Part shown: positions 457-21,201 of the stretch, piece after piece
Numbering within the stretch: the first letter of the stretch is position 1
Layout of the letters: each line of letters starts with the position of its first letter
Virus record (IMG/VR): IMGVR_UViG_3300032288_000554
Location: 1 to 24,995 of that record
DNA length: 24,995 nucleotides
Origin: a virus
Direction: 5' to 3' (one strand)
The notes under the pieces: generated by a model
Database searches by the model: none
The model's input: only the letters and a program-made list of their open reading frames with translations
Told to the model about the DNA's origin: nothing
Translations under genes and position numbers: made by a program

Positions 457-2172
457 ATGGAAACTGAATCAAAGGTAGTATCGCGTAAACGCTGCCCAAA
501 GTGTGCAGCACAAGGTAATGACACATCAGGTAACAATCTTGCTGTGTATGATGACGGCCATAGTTATTGCTATGCTTGTCAATTTTATATCAAAGGAACA
601 AAGATGGAAACACCCGTAACAGATGAAACACCAACTTATACCAGTGAAAAGTTTAGAACAGGTGAGATCCAGAGTCTACCACATCGACGCATTAATGACA
701 AGACTACCAGACAGTACGGATACCAGACCACTAATACTGGAGCGGAGGTTGAGAATTTTTACAATACCTCTGGAGAGTTGCAAGCACAACATATTCGGTA
801 CGATGGCAAAAAGTTTGCATGGATTGGAGACACGTCGAACCTACAGTTCTTTGGTCAACATCTATTTAACTCAGGCGGTAAGCGTATTCTAATTACCGAG
901 GGTGCTATTGACTGTATGACTATGGCTCAATTGTTTGAGAATAAATACCCAGTTGTATCTATTCCCAATGGAGTCAACTCTGCAGTCAAATGTGTCAAGG
1001 ATAATTATGAATATATCTCATCCTTTGAGACTATTGTTATCTGCTTTGATATGGACGATCCTGGTCAGAAGGCTGCGCGTGATGTAGCAGAAGTTCTACC
1101 ACCTGGCAAGGCTAAGATCATGTCTCTGCCTCGCAAGGATCCCAATGAGATGCTGGTAAATGCTGAGGCTGCTCAGTTGCTACAGGCTTATTGGAATGCT
1201 AGGACATACAGTCCAGACTCAATCCTCCATGTCTCTCAAGTTGTGTCTGACAATAAAACTGATCTACAGGTCTACGAGTATCCTTGGGATTCTCTTACGA
1301 CCTTTATGATTGGTCAGGATTCAGGTCGCTTGAATCTTTGGACATCAGCCACGGGTCACGGCAAGTCCACTATTATCAGAGAATTGGTTGTTGATCATCT
1401 CAACCACGGTCGCGCTGTAGGTGCTGTGTTCCTTGAGGAATCTCCAGAACAAACTGTAGATGATCTTATCTCACTTAGGCTTGGTAAACCAGTCCGTAAG
1501 ATCATGTCTCAGCGTCAACTAAACGATCTTCGCAAGAAAAATAACAAATCTACCGTTGATATGGTAGAAGATAACCTAACCGAAGAGGAATATAATGAAG
1601 CTAAATCGTTCATTTCTAGCAAGCCTTTGTACCTGTATGATCATATCGGCAATGCTAATATCAATAACATCATCAATCGTCTTGAGTATATGGCTGTTGG
1701 CCTTGATTGTAAAGTCATCTTTCTTGATCACATTACTCTCTTGGGCAATATGCTGCTATCTAGCGGCTCTGATTTTGGAAATGATGAGAGACTGGTACTT
1801 GACTCCGTAATGAAGAAGCTACGAGAGTTGGTCGAGCGCACAGGAGTTACCCTCCATGTCATTGCTCATATCAAGAAGACCGACAAGAACGTAGACGAAG
1901 GTGATCGAATCAACCTTAATGATCTTCGTGGCTCAGGTTCTCTTGCACAAATCTCTGATAATGTCTTTGCCCTAGAGCGTAATGCTCAGCATCCAGATCC
2001 CGCAACATGCAATACAACCAATGTACGAGTCCTTAAGAATCGTAAGGGTGGTAAGCGTGGCATCGCTACGGCTCTGTTCTACAACGACCAAACATCCAAG
2101 CTTGTAGATGTACCATTCGTTGTTACCCCAGAAGGAGAGGTGCTTTATCGCTATGACGAAATTAGTGTTTGA
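457..2172 (+). CDS. T7 gp4-like primase-helicase
   Basis: This 571-residue protein fits the bifunctional replicative primase-helicase of T7-like phages (T7 gp4A is about 566 aa). The N-terminus has a four-Cys zinc-binding motif (C13, C16, C38, C41), as needed for primer template recognition. A TOPRIM core follows (EGAIDC around 148, DMDDPG around 199). The RecA/DnaB-type helicase domain has a Walker A motif (TGHGKST, around 299-305) and a Walker B-like VIFLDHITLL around 419-428. It would unwind DNA as a ring hexamer at the fork and lay primers for the polymerase encoded next. The start is supported by an AGGAG site 7 bases upstream, 25 bases after the tRNA-Lys gene. The 3' end overlaps the polymerase start by 20 bases, suggesting coupled translation. 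Confidence 0.95.
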   Translation: METESKVVSRKRCPKCAAQGNDTSGNNLAVYDDGHSYCYACQFYIKGTKMETPVTDETPTYTSEKFRTGEIQSLPHRRINDKTTRQYGYQTTNTGAEVENFYNTSGELQAQHIRYDGKKFAWIGDTSNLQFFGQHLFNSGGKRILITEGAIDCMTMAQLFENKYPVVSIPNGVNSAVKCVKDNYEYISSFETIVICFDMDDPGQKAARDVAEVLPPGKAKIMSLPRKDPNEMLVNAEAAQLLQAYWNARTYSPDSILHVSQVVSDNKTDLQVYEYPWDSLTTFMIGQDSGRLNLWTSATGHGKSTIIRELVVDHLNHGRAVGAVFLEESPEQTVDDLISLRLGKPVRKIMSQRQLNDLRKKNNKSTVDMVEDNLTEEEYNEAKSFISSKPLYLYDHIGNANINNIINRLEYMAVGLDCKVIFLDHITLLGNMLLSSGSDFGNDERLVLDSVMKKLRELVERTGVTLHVIAHIKKTDKNVDEGDRINLNDLRGSGSLAQISDNVFALERNAQHPDPATCNTTNVRVLKNRKGGKRGIATALFYNDQTSKLVDVPFVVTPEGEVLYRYDEISV

Positions 2173-3874
2173 TATTGAGGCCAATGGTCTTAATGAAGTA
2201 ATTGCTGGTAAGAAAGATACTTATCTAAAAGAAGCCACAAAAATTTGGTGTCTATCTATCTGTGACATTGAAACCAAAGAGACATATCTCTTTGAGCAGG
2301 ATAACCTAGCAGATGGCATAGAGATCCTGAGGAATGCTGAGTTGATTGTAGGTCACAACATCTACGCATTCGACATTCCCCTGATTGAAAGATTGTTTGG
2401 ATCATTAAACAAACAACCATACACTCAGGTACTTGATACCCTAATCCTAAGTCGTATGATTTATGGAGACAATCCTCCAACCCCTGATCAATCCCATTCT
2501 CTAAAGGCATGGGGTAAGTTTCTAGGTGAAGAGAAGATTGATTATCAAGGTAACTGGGATTCCTATACAAAGGAAATGGGTGAATATTGTATTCAAGATT
2601 CTGTAGCAACTGCTAAGATTTGGGATCACTTTGCTTCCCAAAGTTATATGATCAAGTACAGTCGTGCTGTTCGTATGGAGCATGTCGTTGCTGACATGAT
2701 CAAGCGTCAAGTAGAAGCTGGTTTTAGTTTTGATGTTGACAAGGCGGAACGCCTAGAAATGGAATTGCTAATTGAAAAGTCTCAAATCGAAGACCAAATG
2801 CGTCGAATCTTCCCAGACAAGATCATTATTAGACATTCTGAGAAAACAGGAAAGCGCCTCAAGGACAAGATCGAAGTCTTCAACCCAGGTTCAAGACAAC
2901 AAATTGCTGAGCGTCTGTCAGAAAAGTATGGATGGGAACCAAACACCACCGACAAGGGAAACCCCAAGGTGGACCATGAAGTTCTATCTAACCTAGACTA
3001 TCCAGAAGCTAAAGTACTTTGTAATTACTTTGATCTTGTTAAACTCATGAGCCAAGTAAGTGATTGGGTTTCACGTTCAAAATCTAGTAGGGATGGAAAA
3101 ATCCATGCTTTTATAAACACATTGGGTGCTGTGACTGGTCGTATGTCCAGTCGAGAACCCAATATCCAACAGGTTCATTCTGACCCAAGAGCTCGTGCAT
3201 TGTTTGTACCACGAGAAGGTTGGTCCTTAGTTGGCTCTGACCTCAAGGGCCTAGAACTAAGAATGCTTGCCCATTATCTATTTCCATACGATAATGGTGC
3301 GTATGCCAAGGAAGTATGTGAAGGAGATATCCATACCCACAATCAAAAGGCTATGGAACTGGACTCTCGTAACACAGCTAAGACTGCAATCTATTGCTTC
3401 TTGTATGGCGGTGGTGACGAAAAGTTTGGTAAGACTGTTGGTTGTTCTACCCATAAGGCTAAGCAAACCAAAGGTAAACTCCTTAGTAATATTCCTGGAC
3501 TTAAGAAGTTGATTGAGAATTGTAGATTTGACACATTGGATAAGGGATATGTCATGCCATTCAATTGGCGACCAGTCTATGTCCGTAAGGAACATGCTGC
3601 TCTGAATACTTTGCTGCAATCTTCAGGTGCTCATATTGCCAAGGGCTGGGCCTGTGTAGCTGATCAACGTCTTCGGATGGAGATTGGTCAAGATAAATTT
3701 AATTGGGTTGCTTCTGTGCATGACGAACTACAAGTAGAATGTCATCCAGATGTGGCTAATAAAGTAGGTAAGATCCTCTGCGATTCTGCAACTACAGCTG
3801 GTGAACTACTACGCTGTAATTGTAAGATTGAGGCAGAATTTAAAGTAGGTACTAACTGGTCGGAGACACACTAA
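2153..3874 (+). CDS. DNA polymerase A family, T7 gp5-like with 3'-5' exonuclease
   Basis: A 573-residue family A replicative polymerase. Proofreading exonuclease motifs are visible: FDIEANG near residue 6 (Exo I), GHNIYAFDIPL near 67 (Exo II) and YCIQDSVAT near 145 (Exo III). Polymerase motif A is GSDLKGLELRMLAH near 360, motif B is RNTAKTAIYCFLYG near 407, and motif C is VHDEL near 521. The Tyr in motif B sits at the position of E. coli Pol I Phe762 and T7 Tyr526. The frame is open further upstream (ATG at 2108), but the ATG at 2153 places Exo I at the usual distance from the N-terminus and follows an AAGGAGAGG stretch. Length is shorter than T7 gp5 (704 aa), as in many marine podoviruses. 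Thioredoxin dependence cannot be judged. Confidence 0.95.
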   Translation: MTKLVFDIEANGLNEVIAGKKDTYLKEATKIWCLSICDIETKETYLFEQDNLADGIEILRNAELIVGHNIYAFDIPLIERLFGSLNKQPYTQVLDTLILSRMIYGDNPPTPDQSHSLKAWGKFLGEEKIDYQGNWDSYTKEMGEYCIQDSVATAKIWDHFASQSYMIKYSRAVRMEHVVADMIKRQVEAGFSFDVDKAERLEMELLIEKSQIEDQMRRIFPDKIIIRHSEKTGKRLKDKIEVFNPGSRQQIAERLSEKYGWEPNTTDKGNPKVDHEVLSNLDYPEAKVLCNYFDLVKLMSQVSDWVSRSKSSRDGKIHAFINTLGAVTGRMSSREPNIQQVHSDPRARALFVPREGWSLVGSDLKGLELRMLAHYLFPYDNGAYAKEVCEGDIHTHNQKAMELDSRNTAKTAIYCFLYGGGDEKFGKTVGCSTHKAKQTKGKLLSNIPGLKKLIENCRFDTLDKGYVMPFNWRPVYVRKEHAALNTLLQSSGAHIAKGWACVADQRLRMEIGQDKFNWVASVHDELQVECHPDVANKVGKILCDSATTAGELLRCNCKIEAEFKVGTNWSETH

Positions 3875-4095
3875 TGTCTAGAGATTATGACGACGAATAC
3901 AAGAAGTTTCAATCATCAACTAAATCAAAGAAAGACCGAGCCCATCGCAATAAGGTACGCCGTAAGGCTACCCGCGAAGGCCGTGTTGAAAAACATGATG
4001 GAAAAGACATTGATCATGTTGATGGAAATCCAAGAAACAATTCACCTAAGAATCTACGGGTTGTTAGTAAGTCCAAGAATCGAGCAAAGAAGTGA
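3874..4095 (+). CDS. Small HNH endonuclease-like protein
   Basis: A 73-residue, strongly basic protein whose C-terminal half has an HNH pattern: IDHVDGNPRNNSPKNLRVV, with the central DH, the paired N and the NL-(R)V segment seen in HNH nucleases. The N-terminal half is a Lys/Arg-rich segment without recognisable domain. It may be a free-standing homing-type nuclease inserted beside the polymerase gene or a phage nicking nuclease; no intron or intein is visible in the polymerase. It starts on the last base of the polymerase stop codon (TAATG) and its TGA overlaps the GTG start of the next small ORF. Confidence 0.75.
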   Translation: MSRDYDDEYKKFQSSTKSKKDRAHRNKVRRKATREGRVEKHDGKDIDHVDGNPRNNSPKNLRVVSKSKNRAKK

Positions 4096-4247
4096 CTGAA
4101 GCAGTTTACTTTATGCGCCAAGTAAACGAGTTTATAGCTTCAAATCCAGAACACCCCATGGTTGTAGATTACAACAAGGGCAATATTGGATTAGGTTATA
4201 TTATTCGCCATTGGCAGGAGGTTAGTAATGAGAATTATTCAAATTAG
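4092..4247 (+). CDS. Small hypothetical protein, GTG start
   Basis: A 51-residue ORF fills the only gap in this operon. It would start with GTG in a GTGA overlap with the HNH gene, or alternatively at ATG 4113, and ends inside the start of the dNMP kinase gene. Its product is soluble-looking, with VNEFIASNPEHPMVVDYN and GNIGLGYIIRHW; no family is recognised with confidence. The tight coupling on both sides and the sensible composition favour a real gene. Confidence 0.6.
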   Translation: MTEAVYFMRQVNEFIASNPEHPMVVDYNKGNIGLGYIIRHWQEVSNENYSN

Positions 4248-4869
4248 TGGCAAGGGCAGGGTGGGTAAAACCACCCTTGCTCAAGCCATTCAACGTGCTG
4301 TGTTTGATAAGGGATACAACCCTGTGGTTCTACCCTTTGCAAAAGCTATCAAAGAAGAAGCAGAGCGACTTGGGATTACCAAGGATACGGACTCTTCCAA
4401 ATATCGTGAATTCTGTCAGGAACTCGGTGCTCGCAAGCGTGCTGAGGATCCTGATTACTGGGTAACCAAGACCTATGAACAAATCCAAGAGTACATGGTT
4501 AAGGAAATTGATAACAAGAAACAAGGTAAGACTCATTATGAGTATGTCATTATTCAAGATGATGTGCGATACATGAATGAACTTGCCTTGGGTCGTGACC
4601 TTGTAGCTACCCAAATCTTCCTGTCAGCAGGAGATCGTAAGCTCGAAGAACACAAGGCCAAGTGGCGTAGTCACGAAAGTGAAATACTTGGCAATGCTGT
4701 AGACGAAGCAATTGGTAAGGATAACAATGATTACGACGCATTGTTTGACTGTGTTATCTCTAACGACGGATCTACTAAAGATCTAGAACAATTAGTTAAA
4801 GATAATCTAGATGACTGGCTTGATCTAGGTTATATGGAACTAGAGGAATATAGTGAAGAAACCAACTGA
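4228..4869 (+). CDS. Deoxynucleoside monophosphate kinase
   Basis: A 213-residue P-loop kinase of the phage dNMP kinase type (the T4 gene 1 group). The P-loop GKGRVGKTT lies at residues 8-16, directly after an N-terminal beta strand. IIQDDVRYMNELALG, about residues 109-123, matches the DVRxxNE region typical of these kinases. The enzyme would phosphorylate dNMPs, for example those released from host DNA by the exonuclease encoded next, to dNDPs for phage DNA synthesis. The ATG follows a GGCAGGAGG site at 4213-4221. The 3' end overlaps the next gene by 17 bases. Confidence 0.85.
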   Translation: MRIIQISGKGRVGKTTLAQAIQRAVFDKGYNPVVLPFAKAIKEEAERLGITKDTDSSKYREFCQELGARKRAEDPDYWVTKTYEQIQEYMVKEIDNKKQGKTHYEYVIIQDDVRYMNELALGRDLVATQIFLSAGDRKLEEHKAKWRSHESEILGNAVDEAIGKDNNDYDALFDCVISNDGSTKDLEQLVKDNLDDWLDLGYMELEEYSEETN

Positions 4870-5662
4870 GGCCATCTTAGATGGTGATATCATTGCTTAT
4901 CGTGCTGCCTTCTGGGCTGATTCCGAAGGGGTAGACGAACTACCAACTAGGATTGCCCAAGATATCAAGAACTGGACACCCGAGGGTGTAGATAAAGTCT
5001 ACATTGCTATGTCGTGTCCCCGTAGTAACAACTATAGGAGAATGTTTTGGCCAGAGTACAAGAAACACAGAGAGGACTTCAAGAGTCCAGACTGTATGTC
5101 AATTGCACTAGAGACAATCTATGCAACCAATCTGACTGTTCGATGTGTGAATCACCTAGAAGCAGACGATCTTATTGGAATGCTGGTGTCATCAGGCAAG
5201 GCACTTGGAGTAACGGTGGACAAGGATCTTCGACAGATTCCTGGGTGGCATTGGAATCCAGACAAGGAATTAGAACCGCTCCTGGTATCTGGAGAAGAGG
5301 CCGATAAGTATTTCTACCAGCAATGGCTGACTGGAGATACTACTGATAATATCTGGGGTCTTTGGAAGGTTGGTCCTGCCAAAGCACTAAAGGTATTGGA
5401 AGCCAATCCACCTGAGGCATGGGATCAGGTTATTATGACCATGTATGAGAACGAGGATTGGGCTAAACGACCTGAGAATAAACGTCCTCTAGATATGTTC
5501 CGCAAGGAGTTTGCTTTGTCACAAGCACGTTGTGTCCGTATCCTACGGGATGGTGATTATGACAAAGAAAAGAATACAATCAACCTGTGGTGTCCAAATA
5601 ACCACGGAGTTAGAAACATTTTGAACTTAGACAAGGGAGTTATTGATGAGCAAGATATTTGA
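4853..5662 (+). CDS. 5'-3' exonuclease, T7 gp6-like (FEN/PIN fold)
   Basis: A 269-residue protein (T7 gp6 is 300 aa) with the metal-binding acidic motifs of the FEN-like nuclease family: ILDGDIIAYRAAF near residue 8, LEADDLIG near 102, VDKDLRQIPG near 124, and the helix-hairpin-helix-like TGDTTDNIWGLWKVGPAKA near 163. In T7 this enzyme removes RNA primers and degrades host DNA to nucleotides, which fits its place between a dNMP kinase and an RNR. The start is GTG at 4853, in frame with MKKPTEAILDGD and preceded by AGAGGAA; no nearby ATG would keep the first acidic motif. It overlaps the kinase gene by 17 bases and the RNR gene by 17 bases. Confidence 0.92.
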   Translation: MKKPTEAILDGDIIAYRAAFWADSEGVDELPTRIAQDIKNWTPEGVDKVYIAMSCPRSNNYRRMFWPEYKKHREDFKSPDCMSIALETIYATNLTVRCVNHLEADDLIGMLVSSGKALGVTVDKDLRQIPGWHWNPDKELEPLLVSGEEADKYFYQQWLTGDTTDNIWGLWKVGPAKALKVLEANPPEAWDQVIMTMYENEDWAKRPENKRPLDMFRKEFALSQARCVRILRDGDYDKEKNTINLWCPNNHGVRNILNLDKGVIDEQDI

Positions 5663-7562
5663 AGATTTCGTAGCCGTAGATAAGTATTGCCGATGGCTAC
5701 CCAATGAGAATCGTAGAGAGACTTGGGATGAGGCTGTAGATAGATACTTTGATTATTTAATTAATCGTCTTGATCTTAGCAATAAAGTACCCCTAGAGGA
5801 AATGCAAGAGATTGGTAAGATTCGTCAGGCTATGAAGGATCGCCAAGTGTTTGGTTCCATGCGCGCTCTTATGACCGCTGGGCCAGCTCTTGATAAGGAT
5901 GATGTAGCTGCATACAATTGCTGCTATGTTGCTATTAACTCTACCCAGGATCTATCTAACATCCTGTATACCCTAGCCTGTGGTACAGGTGTTGGGTTCT
6001 CAGTTGAAAGACACAACATCCAGAACCTACCAGTGGTCAGCGAGACTATTGAAAAGGTAGAAAATGTCATTGTAGTAGATGATTCCCGTGAAGGTTGGGC
6101 TAATGCCTATAAGTATTTTATTGACCAACTGTTCAATGGTAAGCATTTTACGGTGGACGTAAGTAAAATACGGCCAAATGGTGCTCGTCTTAAGACTTTT
6201 GGTGGCCGTGCCTCTGGGCCAGAACCACTGATTAGACTAATTAAGTTTACTGCCAATGTCTTTTATGAAGCCCGTGGTCGTAAACTTAAACCAATTGAAG
6301 TACATGATTTGGTTTGTCAAATTGCGGATTCAATTATCTCAGGTGGGGTAAGGCGTTCGGCTCTTATCTCCCTTAGTGATCTTAATGATTATGAAATGGC
6401 TCATGCCAAGAGTGGCCCCTGGTGGGAAAAGGGAGGACATCGTGCGCTTGCAAACAACTCAGCCGTCTATACATCAAAGCCAGACATGGGTTCGTTCATG
6501 CAAGAATGGACATCGTTGTATAACTCCCGATCAGGTGAGCGTGGTATCTGTAATAGAGAAGCTATGCAAAAGATCGCAGAAAAGGCAGGACGAAAGGCAC
6601 ACTATGAATTTGGAACTAATCCCTGTTCAGAGATCATCCTTCGACCCAACCAATTCTGTAATCTTTCTACCGTAGCGGTACGTCCCGATGATCAAGCACC
6701 ACAACTAATTGATAAGATTCGTTATGCTGCAATCCTCGGTACTCTACAGAGTGCGCTAACTAACTTTACATACTTTACATCCCAAAAGAATTCTTCCTTT
6801 AAGGATAACTGTGAGGAAGAGCGTTTGCTTGGTGTGTCTATGACTGGTATCTTTGACAATCAATTGACAAATGGTGGTCAGGGTCCAGAAGAATTACAGA
6901 AATTACTAGGAGCACTTAAGTTTGTTGCTAGAAAAATTAATGAGAAGTGGTCTAGCTATCTGGGAATTAATCCATCCAAGTCTATTACCTGTATTAAGCC
7001 AGAAGGTACAACTAGCTGCGTTGCTGGGACTGCCTCTGGTTTACATCCACGCTATAGCAAGTTCTATATTCGTAGAATCAGAATGGATAAGAACTCTCCC
7101 ATGGCTAAGTTTATGATTGATTCTGGTATTCCAAGCGAGGCTTGTGTAATGAAGCCAAACCATACTCTGGTTTTCTCATTCCCAATTAAAGCCGACTTTG
7201 GTATTACAGAACAACAGATCAATGCTATTGGGCATCTTAACCTTTGGTTAGCTTATCAATTGTGGTATTGTGATCATAAGCCTAGCATCACTGTTAATTA
7301 CAACGACAATGAGTTCCTTCATATTGGTGGTTGGTTATGGCAGCATTGGAATGCCGTCAGTGGCATTTCATTCTTGCCGAAGGATAACCATGTATATCAG
7401 CAAGCACCATTCGAGGCAATCTCAGAAGAAGAGTATAACAAACTCAACGATGCTATGCCAACCAGTGTTGATTTCAATCTTCTATCTAATTATGAGACAG
7501 AAGATGGTACTACAAATGCTCGCGCCCTAGCTTGTACAGCTAATGGTTGTGAGGTAACCTAA
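5646..7562 (+). CDS. Adenosylcobalamin-dependent (class II) ribonucleotide reductase
   Basis: A 638-residue monomeric class II RNR (RTPR type) that reduces ribonucleotides to deoxyribonucleotides using adenosylcobalamin to generate the radical. Visible landmarks, numbered from ATG 5646: the N-terminal redox Cys in AAYNCCYVAI (C92/C93), SGGVRRSALISLSD, the thiyl-radical Cys in NPCSE (C327), and its redox partner in FCNL (C338). The 11-residue spacing matches Cys408/Cys419 of the Lactobacillus leichmannii enzyme. KPEGTTSCVAGTASGLHPRY follows, and the C-terminal CTANGC pair at the tail would re-reduce the active site. A TTG at 5643 is in frame, but ATG 5646 is better placed after AAGGGAG (5632-5638). 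No separate NrdB or thioredoxin is visible. Related phage enzymes are typical of marine T7-like phages. Confidence 0.95.
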   Translation: MSKIFEDFVAVDKYCRWLPNENRRETWDEAVDRYFDYLINRLDLSNKVPLEEMQEIGKIRQAMKDRQVFGSMRALMTAGPALDKDDVAAYNCCYVAINSTQDLSNILYTLACGTGVGFSVERHNIQNLPVVSETIEKVENVIVVDDSREGWANAYKYFIDQLFNGKHFTVDVSKIRPNGARLKTFGGRASGPEPLIRLIKFTANVFYEARGRKLKPIEVHDLVCQIADSIISGGVRRSALISLSDLNDYEMAHAKSGPWWEKGGHRALANNSAVYTSKPDMGSFMQEWTSLYNSRSGERGICNREAMQKIAEKAGRKAHYEFGTNPCSEIILRPNQFCNLSTVAVRPDDQAPQLIDKIRYAAILGTLQSALTNFTYFTSQKNSSFKDNCEEERLLGVSMTGIFDNQLTNGGQGPEELQKLLGALKFVARKINEKWSSYLGINPSKSITCIKPEGTTSCVAGTASGLHPRYSKFYIRRIRMDKNSPMAKFMIDSGIPSEACVMKPNHTLVFSFPIKADFGITEQQINAIGHLNLWLAYQLWYCDHKPSITVNYNDNEFLHIGGWLWQHWNAVSGISFLPKDNHVYQQAPFEAISEEEYNKLNDAMPTSVDFNLLSNYETEDGTTNARALACTANGCEVT

Positions 7563-10322: not shown

Positions 10323-10921
10323 TGGACAGAAAACAATCAGCCGTAGCACGGCGTTTAGCTGAACAAAAAAGTGCACTTAGTCTTGCTGTACAAGAACCAC
10401 AATTAACTTTCCTACAAACTCAAGTTGGTAAGCATGAAAATACTTTGATTTCTTTAAACTCTTATACGGTTTATTTAAATCAAAATATAACCAAGGCTCA
10501 GGATAACATCACAGATTTGTTTACTCGGCTTGGTAAAGTAGAAACCTATACTACTGTACAACAGGGTAGATTAGTTGGTCGTTGGTCATCAGCTGGTACT
10601 GGTACTTTACAAGAAGTAACAATAGGTTATGGTTTAAAACTTAGTAATGGCGGTGAACTTAGTGCATTTACTGCACAAATTGCTGATGCTGGCATTACAA
10701 TTACGGCTGGTAATGGATTACTTGGTGGTGGCGACCTTACTCAGAATAGATCTTTATCTGTTAACTTTGCGGCTAATGGTGAAGTTTCATCTAGCAAAGC
10801 AGTAAGAGCAGATGACTCTAGACTTAGTGGTTTAGCCCCAAGTACGGGCTTATTTGATATAGATGGTGGAGATGCTGGTGTATACACAGGCACTCCTATA
10901 CTAGATGGAGGTGGTGCCTAA
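10322..10921 (+). CDS. Fibre-like protein with N-terminal coiled coil
   Basis: A 199-residue protein. Residues ~20-80 form a likely trimeric coiled coil. From ~100 onward it has beta-rich fibre segments such as GLKLSNGGELS and GNGLLGGGDLTQNRSLSV, a pattern common in phage tail fibres and head fibres. It ends in PILDGGGA, a terminal DGG tag also seen in the next two gene products. It starts on the stop codon of the previous gene (TAATG) and its stop overlaps the start of the next one. It probably is a short fibre or a fibre-anchoring component of the virion. Confidence 0.75.
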   Translation: MDRKQSAVARRLAEQKSALSLAVQEPQLTFLQTQVGKHENTLISLNSYTVYLNQNITKAQDNITDLFTRLGKVETYTTVQQGRLVGRWSSAGTGTLQEVTIGYGLKLSNGGELSAFTAQIADAGITITAGNGLLGGGDLTQNRSLSVNFAANGEVSSSKAVRADDSRLSGLAPSTGLFDIDGGDAGVYTGTPILDGGGA

Positions 10922-11223
10922 TGCCCTATACAATTAGAGTACGTCGAGATACATCAGCTAACTGGACCACAACAAATCCAGTACTAGCCTTAGGAGAAAT
11001 AGGATATGATGTAACCAACGATAAATTAAAAGTGGGTAATGGTATTGCAACATGGAGTGCACTCACTTATCTAGATGCTGATCCATCCGCACACTTCCAT
11101 TCCCTTAGTGATCTATCTGATTTTCAAGTAACAAGTCCCGCCACTGGTCAGGTATTTAGATATTCTGGAACCAAGTGGATTAATGAAGCACCCGAAACAC
11201 TTACCGATGGTGGTAACTTTTAA
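10921..11223 (+). CDS. Short fibre-like protein with Mtd-N-like module
   Basis: A 100-residue protein. The N-terminal ~50 residues (IRVRRDTSANW, then LALGEIGYDVTNDKLKVGNG) match the module found at the start of the Bordetella phage Mtd tropism determinant and many phage fibres, which usually trimerises or anchors. The C-terminal half contains FHSLSDLSDFQV and YSGTKWINE, a pattern seen in phage fibres, and ends with DGGNF. It could be a decoration or an adaptor between the two neighbouring fibre proteins. It overlaps the upstream gene by 1 base. Confidence 0.8.
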   Translation: MPYTIRVRRDTSANWTTTNPVLALGEIGYDVTNDKLKVGNGIATWSALTYLDADPSAHFHSLSDLSDFQVTSPATGQVFRYSGTKWINEAPETLTDGGNF

Positions 11224-11234
11224 AGGAGAGATAA

Positions 11235-13208
11235 ATGGCAAACACACTTAGAATTAAACGCAGAGCATCAGGAAACGCAGGAGCCCCAACCACACTAGAG
11301 AATGCTGAGTTAGCATTTAACGAAGTCGATATGACACTGTACTATGGTAAAGGTACAGGTGGTGCTGGTGGTACTGCAACTACAATTGAAGCAATTGGAG
11401 GTTCTGGTGCTTTTGTTGGTTTAGCTGGTACTCAAACAATTACTGGTAATAAGACATTCTCTGGAACTGTTGCATTAGGTTCATCCGCTACCGCAACCAC
11501 CCCTGCTGGAAGTAGCAATGATACAAGTGTAGCAACTACCGCATTTGTTAAGGCCCTTGGTCTTGGTTCTGGAACGGTCACTAGTGTTGGTCTATCTCTT
11601 CCTGCAATCTTTACTGTTAGCAACAGTCCAGTAACAACCACTGGCACACTGACAGCAACCTTTGCTTCTCAGTCAGCTAATCAGGTATTTGTTGCTCCCA
11701 ACGGCAGTAGTGGTGCGCCAACCTTTAGATCATTGGTTGCTGCTGATATCCCAACACTAACTGCTGCTAAGATCAGTGATTTTGATACTCAAGTTCGTAC
11801 AAACAGACTTGATCAAATGGCACAGCCAACCGCTGATGTTCCATTCAACAGCCGTAAGATTACTGGTCTTGCCGATCCCACACAGAATCAAGACGCTGCA
11901 ACCAAGGCATATGTAGATACCGTATCACAAGGTATCCATACCCATACTTCAGCTCGTCTTGCTACTGCAGCAGCTTTACCAACATCAACTTATTCTAACG
12001 GTACTGGTGGTATTAATGCTACCATTACTGGTACAGCTAACGGCGCTCTTTCTGTAGACAGTGTTGCTGTAGCGGTTGATGATCGAATCCTAGTTAAGAA
12101 TCAAGCAAACGCATTTGAAAACGGTATGTATGTTGTTACTGCTACTGGTGGAGCCAGTGCTGTATTCGTACTAACTCGTTCTACTGACATGAATCAGGAT
12201 GTAGAATTCCCTGGTTCGTTTGAATTCGTAGAAGAAGGTACAGTTAATGCTGACAATGGTTATGTAGTTACTACAAACCTTCCAATTACTATTGGTACTA
12301 CAGGTATTACTTGGACTCAGTTCTCAGGTGCTGGTCAGATTACAGCAGGAACTGGTCTTACCAAGAGCGGTAATACCATTGATGTTGCCACTGCTTCGGC
12401 TTCCAGAATTGTAGTCAATGCCGATAGTATTGATCTTGCAACTACAGGTGTATCTGCAAGTACCTATAAGTCTGTAACTGTAGATACCTATGGTCGTGTG
12501 ACTGCTGGTACTAATCCAACTACACTCAGTGGTTACGGTATTACCGATGCCCTTAGTAACAGTACTTCATCTTCTCAAAACATGTATGGTCAATTATATT
12601 TATATGATAATGGACTTTCTTCAACTGGTTTGTATTTAAAGGTTGATAACGTTAGTGACCTTACTACAGCTAGAACTTTAAGTATTGATGTTAATGATGC
12701 TAATAGAACAATTACCCTTAGCGGTAATCTTACTGTAAGTGCAGCCTCTACAGTCAGCGGTACCAACACAGGTGATCAGACCATTACCCTAACGGGTGAT
12801 GTGACTGGTTCTGGTACTGGTTCATTTACAACTACCCTAGCCAACTCAGGCGTTACTGCTGGCACCTATAAATCCGTCACAGTCAATGCCAAGGGTCTAG
12901 TGACATCAGGTACTAACCCAACCACCTTGGCTGGATACGGCATCGTAGACGCTCAGGCTCTAGATGCTACCCTAACTGCCTTGGCTGGCGTAAGCACCTC
13001 AGCTAATACTGTAATCTACGCTACTGGTTCTGATACTTTTACTACCACTAGTTTTACTGCGTTTGGTCGTAGCTTAGTAGACGATGCTGATGCTTCGGCT
13101 GGTAGAACTACTCTTGGTCTTGGCACAATGGCAACTCAGAATGCCAGCAGTGTTGCAATTACTGGTGGTACTATTGACGGTATTACTCTTGATGGAGGCT
13201 CATTCTAA
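11235..13208 (+). CDS. Tail-fibre/adhesin protein with phage fibre repeats
   Basis: A 657-residue Gly/Thr/Ser-rich beta protein. Residues 1-50 carry the same N-terminal module as the neighbouring gene products (LRIKRRASGNAG, then ENAELAFNEVDMTLYYGKG). Then come common tail-fibre signatures: GTQTITGNKTFSGTV near 65 and KITGLADPTQNQDAATKAYV near 209. Two copies of a shaft repeat (TYKSVTVDTYGRVTAGTNPT near 410, TYKSVTVNAKGLVTSGTNPT near 544) are each followed by a GYGI motif. It ends with LDGGSF. It probably is a trimeric host-recognition fibre. It is preceded by the strong leader AAGGAGAGATAA, and its stop overlaps the next start. Its place between portal and scaffold, away from the tail genes, is unusual. 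Confidence 0.88.
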   Translation: MANTLRIKRRASGNAGAPTTLENAELAFNEVDMTLYYGKGTGGAGGTATTIEAIGGSGAFVGLAGTQTITGNKTFSGTVALGSSATATTPAGSSNDTSVATTAFVKALGLGSGTVTSVGLSLPAIFTVSNSPVTTTGTLTATFASQSANQVFVAPNGSSGAPTFRSLVAADIPTLTAAKISDFDTQVRTNRLDQMAQPTADVPFNSRKITGLADPTQNQDAATKAYVDTVSQGIHTHTSARLATAAALPTSTYSNGTGGINATITGTANGALSVDSVAVAVDDRILVKNQANAFENGMYVVTATGGASAVFVLTRSTDMNQDVEFPGSFEFVEEGTVNADNGYVVTTNLPITIGTTGITWTQFSGAGQITAGTGLTKSGNTIDVATASASRIVVNADSIDLATTGVSASTYKSVTVDTYGRVTAGTNPTTLSGYGITDALSNSTSSSQNMYGQLYLYDNGLSSTGLYLKVDNVSDLTTARTLSIDVNDANRTITLSGNLTVSAASTVSGTNTGDQTITLTGDVTGSGTGSFTTTLANSGVTAGTYKSVTVNAKGLVTSGTNPTTLAGYGIVDAQALDATLTALAGVSTSANTVIYATGSDTFTTTSFTAFGRSLVDDADASAGRTTLGLGTMATQNASSVAITGGTIDGITLDGGSF

Positions 13209-14374: not shown

Positions 14375-14785
14375 ATGAGATACGCTGTAATAAATAATTC
14401 AAATGTAGTAGAAAATATAATTATCATAGAAAATCCAGAAGTATGGACACAAAATACTTTACTTGTTTTATTAAATGAAAATGAACGGTGTGCTATAGGT
14501 TGGATTTACGATTCAAACTTAACACCTAGATTTATTTTTGTACCTATTCAAGCTGTATTTTCTTGGACTTCTTACCAATTCTTATTACGATTTACCGTAG
14601 AAGAACGAGCTGCTTTCCGAGCTGCTGCATTGACTGATCCAAATGTCGCTGACTTTCAACAATTAGCTCAAGCAGCTCAGGAAGTAATTAGTAACGACCC
14701 TATGACTGTGGCTGGTATGAACTATTTAGTTAGTGTCAATCTGCTAACAGAACAACGTAAAAACGAAATACTAGGATTAACATGA
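14375..14785 (+). CDS. Hypothetical phage protein downstream of adhesin
   Basis: A 136-residue protein. The N-terminal ~50 residues (YAVINNSNVVENIIII, then GWIYDSN) resemble short domains often found in phage fibre-associated proteins. The C-terminal half is helical: LRFTVEERAAFRAAALTDPN, QQLAQAAQEVISND and LTEQRKNEIL. It could be a fibre-assembly or decoration protein, by analogy with small genes that follow fibre genes in other phages. The start has no strong ribosome site; the stop overlaps the cohesin/dockerin gene (ATGA). Confidence 0.75.
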   Translation: MRYAVINNSNVVENIIIIENPEVWTQNTLLVLLNENERCAIGWIYDSNLTPRFIFVPIQAVFSWTSYQFLLRFTVEERAAFRAAALTDPNVADFQQLAQAAQEVISNDPMTVAGMNYLVSVNLLTEQRKNEILGLT

Positions 14786-15426
14786 TTGATATTATACTTA
14801 GTTGTATTACTCCTGCTGTAATCGGTCAAACCGTAGACGTTCAGGTATTAGTTCAGGCTAACAACCAAACTCGAATTACTTCATGTGATCTTGTGTTTGG
14901 ATGGGATACCACTAAACTAGAGTTTGTTGGTATTGATAATTCTAATATTCTAGAACCATTAGCATCTTTCTTACCACAAGGTAACTGGGACTACTATGGA
15001 ATCAATGAAACCTTACCACCCGCAGATGGTAATGGTCTGTATTACTGGCTTGCTCCTTTAACGGGAATTCCTGTGTATATTACTCAACAGCCAAGTTTAT
15101 TAACTACCTTAAAGTTTAAAGTATTGCCAAACTATACTCCAACTTCTGTAGATATTTTACCTGAGTTCACTGTATTTCATACAGCAGAAACCGTAATCTA
15201 TGGTTCAGATGTGCCTGGAATGAATGTTACTGGTACACTTACCAATGCTCCAGTCAATCCAGTTATGGGTGATTTTGATTATAATGGTCTGGTTGGTTCC
15301 CAAGACATGGCTATGCTATTAGTTAACTGGGGATCTATTACACTTGGACCCAATCCATACGACCTAGATAAAGATGGTCAAGTAGGATCTGGTGATCTAT
15401 CTTTACTATTAGCAAGTTGGGGGTAA
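14782..15426 (+). CDS. Cohesin-like domain fused to a dockerin domain
   Basis: A 214-residue protein. Residues ~10-160 read as a cohesin/carbohydrate-binding-like beta sandwich: IGQTVDVQVLVQANNQT, DLVFGWDTTKLEFVGI and LLTTLKFKVLPN are in the order and spacing usual for cohesins. Residues 163-214 are a type I dockerin-like pair of calcium loops. The first is D164-D166-N168-G169-V171-G172-D175 and the second D194-D196-D198-G199-V201-G202-D205, each followed by a helix ending NWG or ASWG. The loops are exactly 30 residues apart. Endings of the LLLxxWG type are especially common in secreted proteins of Planctomycetota. The product would bind calcium and could mediate protein-protein contacts on the virion or with host-surface material. 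No signal peptide is seen. The cohesin assignment is less sure than the dockerin. Confidence 0.8.
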   Translation: MIDIILSCITPAVIGQTVDVQVLVQANNQTRITSCDLVFGWDTTKLEFVGIDNSNILEPLASFLPQGNWDYYGINETLPPADGNGLYYWLAPLTGIPVYITQQPSLLTTLKFKVLPNYTPTSVDILPEFTVFHTAETVIYGSDVPGMNVTGTLTNAPVNPVMGDFDYNGLVGSQDMAMLLVNWGSITLGPNPYDLDKDGQVGSGDLSLLLASWG

Positions 15427-15427
15427 T

Positions 15428-16099
15428 ATGGCGTTAAAAGCAATCGCAGCAAATGTTCCAGTAAAAGGAGTAGACTTTTTAGAGTATTACTATACTTTAA
15501 AAGGACTTCCAAACCCATCTCATCAAGTAACTTTAAAAGTAAATCGACATATTCATGTTGGTAATTTTAATTCTAATTCCGTTGCTAATGCTTTAGCTAT
15601 GGCAGAAGATGCTGCAAAGGGATGTTTAATTAAAAGTGGTTGCTTTAGGCCAAATGATTGTTTGGCTAGGATTCCATTTAGAAAGTATGGGTTTCCTGTT
15701 CCACCACCAAGTGGAGATGTTATACCAAATGTTGTAAATTGGGATAATGTTTTATACAACCAATCCCCAACATCTTATTACATTACAGCTGAACAAATAA
15801 CTGGAATAAATGTTCCTATTACTTTAGAGGTACATTTTAGTAGTAGTAATCAAATGGTTTTGCAATACAAAGTAGAAGCTACCAATACAGGAGGTGATGC
15901 TCAAGTATTTACACAACCAACTGGATTTACTGCACTAAATCATCAAGGACAAATTACAGTAACAAATAATCAATGGGTATTTTTTACTGTATTTCCTGGA
16001 CCAAACTTTAACGGTAATTCAAGTCAACACACAATAACAGTACATAACGCTAGCGATAATATGACAATTTTAGATCAGTTTGTTGCTATTGTACAATAA
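15428..16099 (+). CDS. Hypothetical beta-rich virion-type protein
   Basis: A 223-residue protein. The N-terminal half is mixed, with a cluster of cysteines around residues 66-78 (GCLIKSGCFRPNDC) and a Pro-rich stretch VPPPSGD. The C-terminal ~100 residues look like a beta sandwich (ITLEVHFSSSNQMVLQYKV, QITVTNNQWVFFTVFPG). No family is recognised. It starts two bases after the dockerin-gene stop and is followed by the cluster of very small basic proteins, so it is probably co-expressed with the accessory structural block. Confidence 0.7.
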   Translation: MALKAIAANVPVKGVDFLEYYYTLKGLPNPSHQVTLKVNRHIHVGNFNSNSVANALAMAEDAAKGCLIKSGCFRPNDCLARIPFRKYGFPVPPPSGDVIPNVVNWDNVLYNQSPTSYYITAEQITGINVPITLEVHFSSSNQMVLQYKVEATNTGGDAQVFTQPTGFTALNHQGQITVTNNQWVFFTVFPGPNFNGNSSQHTITVHNASDNMTILDQFVAIVQ

Positions 16100-19836: not shown

Positions 19837-21201
19837 ATGCCAGAAAATACACAGAATCTTTATCCCATTGACTCGGGATATCCTAGCGCAACAGTTGGTA
19901 ACTTTAGTAATATGACTGGCCATGGTGGCTGGCCTAAGGGTGGACAAGCTGCTTCAATGACTTCTATCCCATCCGTGGCTAATATTGATCAGTCAGATCC
20001 TTCTTATTGGCTTCCTATTTGGTCAGGTGAAGTAATTAATGCTTATGATCAATACAACATCTTTGAGCCAATGGTTACTACTGAAACCATTGAATCAGGT
20101 ACTACCAAGCGATTCCCAATCACTGGTACTGTTGGTCATAAGGGTGTTTGGCTTGCTGGTGAAGAACTAATTGGTAACAGTGGTATTTCCACTCCAGGTT
20201 GGTTCGATATTTCACTAGATCAACGCCCAATGGCTGCTTACTTTGAATTAGATGATATCCATCTAATGCTTACCCAATGGGACTACCGTGCTGAACTAGC
20301 TCGTCAAGCTGGTCTTCAACTCAGTTACATCCGTGACAAGCAAATTGCTTGTATGCTTGCTCAAGCTGCTTTTACTGCTAATCGTGTACCATTTGGTACT
20401 GATTATGCTGGTATGAATCATGCAAATAATCAAGTTCTTCCAAAAAATGGTGCCTTTAATCACTTAGGAAATAGACTTAGTACTCAAACTCAACGTACTG
20501 ATGCTGCTCTTCTTCTTCTTGATTATATTGAGCGTTACATGGTTAAGCTTTCAGAAATTGATGCTACCATGGGCGAAGTATACTGCGCTGTAACTCCACA
20601 AGCTTTCCACGACATCCGTGCTCTTGGTATTGCCCGTGATGCTACTGGCCTTGTCGGTGGTGCTGGTCGTCCATTCTTCGGTGGTGTAGCCGAAGCTGGT
20701 GGCCTTGGTGCTCCTCTTAATAACAACATGTTTGCTCTTCAAGAAACACTAGATTATATGGGTGTTAAGATTGTTAAGAGTAATCACCTTGCTCAACTAG
20801 ACTTTGCTACTGTTTATAGCAGCACTGCCGCTAATGTTGCAAAAACTGGTTTCTCAACAACTACTGGTTTACCAGTTGCTACTGCAACGATTCCAATGAT
20901 TCACGATCTTGGCGATACTAAGTATGATTTCCAATGGGGTCGTGGAGTTGAAAATGGTGGTGAAACCCGTTTTGATGCCGATGGAAACGGTGTGGTCGAA
21001 GCTACTGATACTTTTGCTCCAGTTAAAGCCCTTATCTGGCAAAAGAGTGCTGTATGCTCACTACGTTTACAAGGCATGAAGGTTGAGACTGTAAAGGATG
21101 TCCGTAGAGGTACATTCTTTACTGTTAGCTCCATCATGGCTGGTGCTGGTATTCTACGACCAGAACTATGTGGCGCAATTCAAGGCGATATAACCGTATA
21201 A
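19837..21201 (+). CDS. Major capsid protein, T7 gp10-like
   Basis: A 454-residue protein forming the icosahedral shell. The place (after scaffold, before a strong terminator and the tail tubular genes), the strong AAGGAGA leader and typical sequence support the call: GDTSGxV-like N-terminal region replaced by SGEVINAYDQYNIFEPMV near 65-82, TTKRFPITGTVGHKGVW near 89-105, and the C-terminal RRGTFFTVSSIMAGAGILRP near 424-443. It is about 110 residues longer than T7 gp10A. Residues 380-391 (DADGNGVVEATD) follow the calcium-loop pattern of EF-hand and dockerin domains, an unexpected insertion near the C-terminus. The coding sequence uses many GCT, GGT and CTT codons, as in highly expressed genes. 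Confidence 0.93.
   Translation: MPENTQNLYPIDSGYPSATVGNFSNMTGHGGWPKGGQAASMTSIPSVANIDQSDPSYWLPIWSGEVINAYDQYNIFEPMVTTETIESGTTKRFPITGTVGHKGVWLAGEELIGNSGISTPGWFDISLDQRPMAAYFELDDIHLMLTQWDYRAELARQAGLQLSYIRDKQIACMLAQAAFTANRVPFGTDYAGMNHANNQVLPKNGAFNHLGNRLSTQTQRTDAALLLLDYIERYMVKLSEIDATMGEVYCAVTPQAFHDIRALGIARDATGLVGGAGRPFFGGVAEAGGLGAPLNNNMFALQETLDYMGVKIVKSNHLAQLDFATVYSSTAANVAKTGFSTTTGLPVATATIPMIHDLGDTKYDFQWGRGVENGGETRFDADGNGVVEATDTFAPVKALIWQKSAVCSLRLQGMKVETVKDVRRGTFFTVSSIMAGAGILRPELCGAIQGDITV

Follow-up and report, generated by a model that had tools for sequence, protein, structure and literature searches.

The question raised by this locus is what a phage gains from a small protein in which a cohesin is fused to a dockerin. 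The two modules form a calcium-dependent clip known from cellulosomes, and few known protein pairs hold together as strongly; to our knowledge such clips have been studied almost only in cellulosomes. The window, that is, the whole stretch of 24,995 nucleotides analysed here, covers part of the genome of a T7-like phage and carries genes for a primase-helicase, DNA polymerase A and a ribonucleotide reductase, and further for a portal protein (PF12236, 175 bits), fibre-like proteins, the major capsid protein and tail proteins. The fusion gene had been placed in a phage adhesin cluster by an earlier note made from the sequence, and it does lie there, tightly packed among fibre/adhesin genes between the portal and capsid genes. 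Its start overlaps the preceding stop by 4 bp (ATGA), and only 2 bp lie between its own stop and the start of the next gene:

14375-14785, plus strand: upstream coupled gene, 136 aa, phrog_25252 with no function assigned, its C-terminal half common to phage record L001
14782-15426, plus strand: cohesin-dockerin fusion gene, 214 aa, without signal peptide, family profile E 8e-88
15428-16099, plus strand: downstream gene, 223 aa, without family match

At the start of the window, positions 3-194 hold a fragment that resembles the ribonucleotide reductase motif FGTNPCSEIIL; the full reductase gene lies elsewhere, at 5643-7562.

The cohesin and dockerin domains

The protein genuinely belongs to both the cohesin and the dockerin folds, and its parts are as follows:

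14785-15255, plus strand: cohesin domain, a beta sandwich, residues 2-158 (PF00963, AlphaFold2 strands, Foldseek)
15268-15423, plus strand: dockerin type I domain, residues 163-214 (PF00404 in homologues, profile matches to solved dockerins)
15271-15306, plus strand: first EF-type loop, DFDYNGLVGSQD, residues 164-175, then a helix ending VNWG
15361-15396, plus strand: second EF-type loop, DLDKDGQVGSGD, residues 194-205, then a helix ending ASWG

Pfam Cohesin (PF00963) was found on residues 15-120 with 26.7 bits, which is above its cut-off of 24.1. An AlphaFold2 model built on a 22-sequence alignment (mean pLDDT 81.7, pTM 0.77) gave a beta sandwich and two helices, with poor modelling of residues 65-83, which lie between cohesin strands. 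When the PDB was searched with Foldseek, cohesins took 45 of the 46 top ranks (E 1.8e-7, TM reaching 0.76 when normalised by target length), and in a single-sequence PDB search the C. thermocellum cohesins were best and dockerins came lower down. The cohesin-like beta sandwich claimed earlier was thus recovered by Pfam, by structure prediction and by structural comparison, and these together with the homologues bear out the claim that cohesin and dockerin are fused in one small viral protein.

The dockerin of the window copy matched Dockerin_1 (PF00404) on residues 163-209 with 15.1 bits, short of the 22.9 that the cut-off requires, and it is confirmed because the homologues match this model: PF00404 was found at E<=0.01 in 14 of 16 family members (best 1.5e-9) and at E<=0.1 in 20 of the 22 members of the alignment, and it was above the cut-off in 23 of 33 records, with homologues reaching 41 bits. 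The family profile also matched solved dockerins (best E 2.2e-7). The window dockerin has the duplicated loop-plus-helix pattern D1-D/N3-D/N5-G6-D12, and the AlphaFold2 model places its helices at residues 173-181 and 203-211. Both loops are EF-type and, judged from their residues, are predicted to bind calcium. They start 30 residues apart, as had been claimed, and pairs of such loops 25-40 residues apart occurred 0 times in 5000 shuffles of the window proteins; the xWG helix ends that had been described are present as well. The NCBIfam model for 'GC-type dockerin' matched relatives of the window dockerin with 21.2 and 17.7 bits, below its cut-off of 29, and with these weak matches and the PEP-CTERM-like sorted proteins of related phages (see below) a planctomycete flavour of the dockerin is plausible.

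Spread, variants and positions of the family

Cohesin was found in 44 IMG/VR virus records including the window, and cohesin together with dockerin in at least 33. The 44 records are the window, 32 contigs from IMG/VR scans, 2 from the PEP-CTERM set and 9 from the capsid set. The fusion family has no PHROG and no match among INPHARED phages or PLSDB plasmids, and no bacterial relatives were confirmed in pattern-based scans of genome contigs. We consider the family in IMG/VR to be undescribed, as our searches found neither a published description nor a curated phage family, and no paper on a viral cohesin-dockerin was found in the literature searched.

Domain composition varies within the family: L004, L005, L042 and G043 have tandem cohesins without a dockerin, L201 has two cohesins and a dockerin, L040 and L041 have a cohesin with one degraded dockerin loop, and L045 and L046 have a cohesin alone. 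A typical record has one copy, usually without a second dockerin or cohesin protein, and neither was found on the window contig. Because of this, the binding partners are expected to come from the host. Alternatively, the protein could be its own partner, the cohesin of one copy binding the dockerin of the next so that calcium-dependent chains would coat cells, debris or virions. Single copies without a separate partner gene would suit such chains, as would the presence of both halves in one short protein, with a spacing of about 10 residues between the domains in the AlphaFold2 model, and the near two-fold symmetry of the dockerin. However, the cohesin and dockerin of one protein are usually non-cognate, and the relatives with two cohesins and a dockerin, with cohesin only or with one broken loop (L040/L041) fit an obligate polymer poorly, so that we regard self-polymerisation as improbable.

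The fusion gene is under purifying selection, with dN/dS of 0.04-0.18 across eleven pairs and of 0.05 for the window against L001. The cohesin-dockerin of L001 is 98% identical to that of the window, and a cassette at 14561-15430 has 92% identity between the two whereas the neighbouring shared DNA has 80-84% and the other flanks are unrelated, which indicates exchange between phages. The spread is patchy, with family domains in 14 of 46 contigs of the T7-like clade. Such patchiness, and the exchange of a cassette with different flanks, would also be expected of a passenger, namely, a fragment of a host surface protein that has no phage function. This explanation was already disfavoured and we consider it very improbable, because dN/dS is low in 11 of the 11 pairs and the calcium loops are intact across most of the family.

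The position of the gene differs from phage to phage. The window, L001, L036 and L037 have it in the fibre cluster, the last two with a divergent allele, and this position is retained in several T7-like lineages. It lies between the primase-helicase and DNA polymerase genes in L007, L016, L017, L023 and L041, after ribonucleotide reductase in L003, L009 and L010, and, in L040, within the early region, before a large ORF read as RNA polymerase; in L008, L012 and L013 a tubulin/FtsZ-family gene is directly downstream of it. These shifts argue for a mobile accessory gene and not for a fixed part of the virion.

The tubulin/FtsZ-like genes are at L012:6380-7567, L013:8662-9849 and L008:5138-6331 (PF00091, 46.5 bits in L013). 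Near the cohesin genes of L003 and L004, two unrelated phage contigs, there are genes for homologous large proteins without family match (L003:3675-5573, minus strand, and L004:8470-9864; 35% identity). L004 is a large phage contig in which many unrelated ORFs start with M(N/T)WYKxAQ (for example, 1711-3033, 4021-6210, 6243-7109 and 10762-11262), and the shared start suggests an N-terminal targeting or packaging tag.

Predicted export and possible display on the virion

Signal peptides were judged by sequence, from a positive n-region, a hydrophobic core and a cleavage-like AxA/Q end. By these marks 12 of 22 analysed members have a Sec-type signal peptide, and a branch with support 93/91 separates the 12 from the other members. 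The T7-like L145, L201 and L207 also carry signal-peptide copies, and none was seen in the window copy, L001 and L036/L037; signal-less copies have nothing ahead of the mature cohesin. In L145, G110 and L151/L201 (the two-cohesin copy), T7-like phages related to that of the window whose capsids are about 68-70% identical to its own, copies with a signal peptide occupy the fibre-cluster position that the gene has in the window. After the two-cohesin copy in L151/L201 comes the gene that lies downstream in the window too, a homologue of the 223-aa gene being found behind the two-cohesin-dockerin gene in L151. Since relatives have predicted signal peptides and signal-less copies begin at the mature cohesin, the protein probably acts outside the cytoplasm, where calcium is available, and the window copy, being without a signal, would then act after lysis or on the virion.

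Action on the virion is the reading that we rank second, after an adaptor at the host surface. In T7-like phages the protein would be made late with the fibres and carried on the particle, its dockerin or cohesin serving for reversible receptor-binding to host scaffolds. A copy without a signal peptide in a tight fibre-gene cluster is the better fit for a virion protein; the window gene is translationally packed in that cluster between portal and capsid, and L001 and L036/L037 keep the position and likewise have no signal peptide. However, the window protein has no virion-attachment domain or PHROG match, the phages with about 68-70% identical capsids have signal-peptide copies at this very position, sister phages have the gene in the replication module, and an EF-type capsid loop that might receive the protein is private to the window phage. 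On balance we think display on the virion unlikely. Virion decoration, which the earlier note had entertained, was not supported as a general mechanism, given that in relatives the gene is placed in the replication module or behind ribonucleotide reductase and that many copies, including those in the same fibre-cluster position, have signal peptides.

The capsid loop just mentioned, DADGNGVVEATD, is a lone EF-hand-type loop at 20974-21009, in a variable loop of the major capsid protein (19837-21201). Docking of the fusion protein to it was rejected: among the capsid homologues inspected, the loop is limited to the window and to L118, which has the identical capsid, and it is absent from L001 in spite of the nearly identical cohesin-dockerin there. 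About 0.06 such loops per proteome are expected by chance.

A possible adaptor at the host surface

The reading that we put first, and hold tentatively, is that these phages carry a minimal cohesin-dockerin adaptor that acts at the host surface, outside the cytoplasm, in the manner of a planctosome. Phages would have taken up the adaptor gene and would pass it among themselves as an accessory gene. Outside the cytoplasm and in calcium, the phage dockerin may clip onto the cohesin of a host surface scaffold, and the phage cohesin may accept a dockerin-bearing protein of the host, of a co-infecting phage or of a related phage. The surface complex would thereby be re-wired or capped, on a host whose surface proteins include dockerin and exosortase-type ones and which is probably a planctomycete-like bacterium. 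The likely benefit would be that receptors are blocked against a second phage or that phage-chosen proteins are held at the surface. Many relatives would be exported during infection by their putative Sec-type signal peptide, and the signal-less window copy would leave the cell at lysis or travel on the virion. If host scaffolds are indeed plugged into, this would point to a new route of surface remodelling or superinfection control; phages of uncultured planctomycete-like bacteria would become easier to approach, and binding studies would gain small natural cohesin-dockerin fusions.

Several known systems can be compared with such an adaptor. Cellulosomal adaptor scaffoldins also have one or more cohesins and a dockerin in one protein (PMC11557425). 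Like them, the phage family joins the modules in one secreted chain, with two cohesins and a dockerin in L201; unlike them, the phage protein is viral, has 210-260 aa and usually one cohesin, has no carbohydrate-binding module, and has no cellulase genes nearby. Unlike a cellulosome scaffoldin, the window has one cohesin, no CBM and no other dockerin. In freshwater planctomycetes a surface 'planctosome' has been proposed that consists of an anchoring protein, an adaptor that carries signal peptide, dockerin and cohesin, and dockerin-bearing peptidases, the adaptor being from freshwater Nemodlikiaceae planctomycetes (PMC6461901). Compared by description, both have signal peptide, dockerin and cohesin joined in one adaptor, and a peptidase cargo, which the subtilase-dockerin of contig G075 (see below) would be. 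The host adaptor differs in its extra hyaline-repeat domain and in its domain order, whereas the phage protein is minimal, and the window copy has neither the signal peptide nor the hyaline repeat. By analogy, the window protein may work like the planctosome adaptor. Archaeal non-cellulosomal cohesin/dockerin proteins, such as those of ANME (PMC9012536), resemble the phage protein in having cohesin-dockerin without cellulose degradation, but they are cellular and often multi-domain whereas this one is encoded by a tailed phage. The gene is also like the phage 'moron' genes that alter the host surface, in that it is a single accessory gene of variable position with predicted export in many relatives. 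We know of no 'moron' example that is a cohesin-dockerin protein.

Genes for further proteins accompany the family in some phages:

L020:7076-7786, L029:3202-3876, L031:6959-7627 and L102:8034-8708: PEP-CTERM-like genes
L029:4027-4230, L031:7801-8004, L032:7801-8001 and L102:8864-9067: genes for two-helix holin-like membrane proteins
L115:1489-2940, minus strand: subtilase with dockerin, contig G075 (PF00082)

The PEP-CTERM-like gene closely precedes the cohesin-dockerin gene in L020, L022, L029, L031 and G075 and directly precedes the tandem-cohesin gene in G043; none is on the window contig. Its secreted product ends in PTPGAIALLGMAGLxGRRRR, a PEP-CTERM-like exosortase tail, and is scored by NCBIfam models below their curated cut-offs. 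There are 54 IMG/VR loci of this family, including three phages of the window's capsid clade, and no match was found in INPHARED phages or plasmids. The model of its fold is modest (pLDDT 68) and has no clear relative. G075 is a 102-kb contig with a terminase gene in addition to the PEP-CTERM-like and cohesin-dockerin genes, and about 4 kb on from the latter it encodes the subtilase (PF00082, 142 bits), which has a signal peptide and, at its C-terminus, a dockerin ending GMLLSAWGACP. G018, G033, G038 and G079 encode secreted proteins, probably beta-helical, that have dockerin-like parts.

From these genes a wider proposal can be framed, namely, that a set of phages infecting exosortase-type (planctomycete-like) hosts bring along genes for an extracellular scaffold kit of their own and rebuild the surface of the infected cell with it. 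The kit would comprise an anchored surface protein of the PEP-CTERM-like kind, the cohesin-dockerin adaptor in secreted form, scaffolds of tandem cohesins, and protease or beta-helix proteins that bear a dockerin. We consider this proposal possible but doubtful.

In L029, L031 and G075 the small holin-like gene lies between the PEP-CTERM-like and cohesin-dockerin genes, and in these and L032 it overlaps or abuts the start of the latter. The holin-like gene was rejected as a general partner because it is kilobases away in L007/L016/L017. The PEP-CTERM-like proteins are a conserved phage-encoded family, predicted to be secreted, with the C-terminus PTPGAIALLGMAGLIGRRRR. Such genes adjoin L048:1112-2992, L113:1438-3111 and L114:1372-2988, which encode secreted, probably beta-helical proteins with C- or N-terminal dockerin-like loops.
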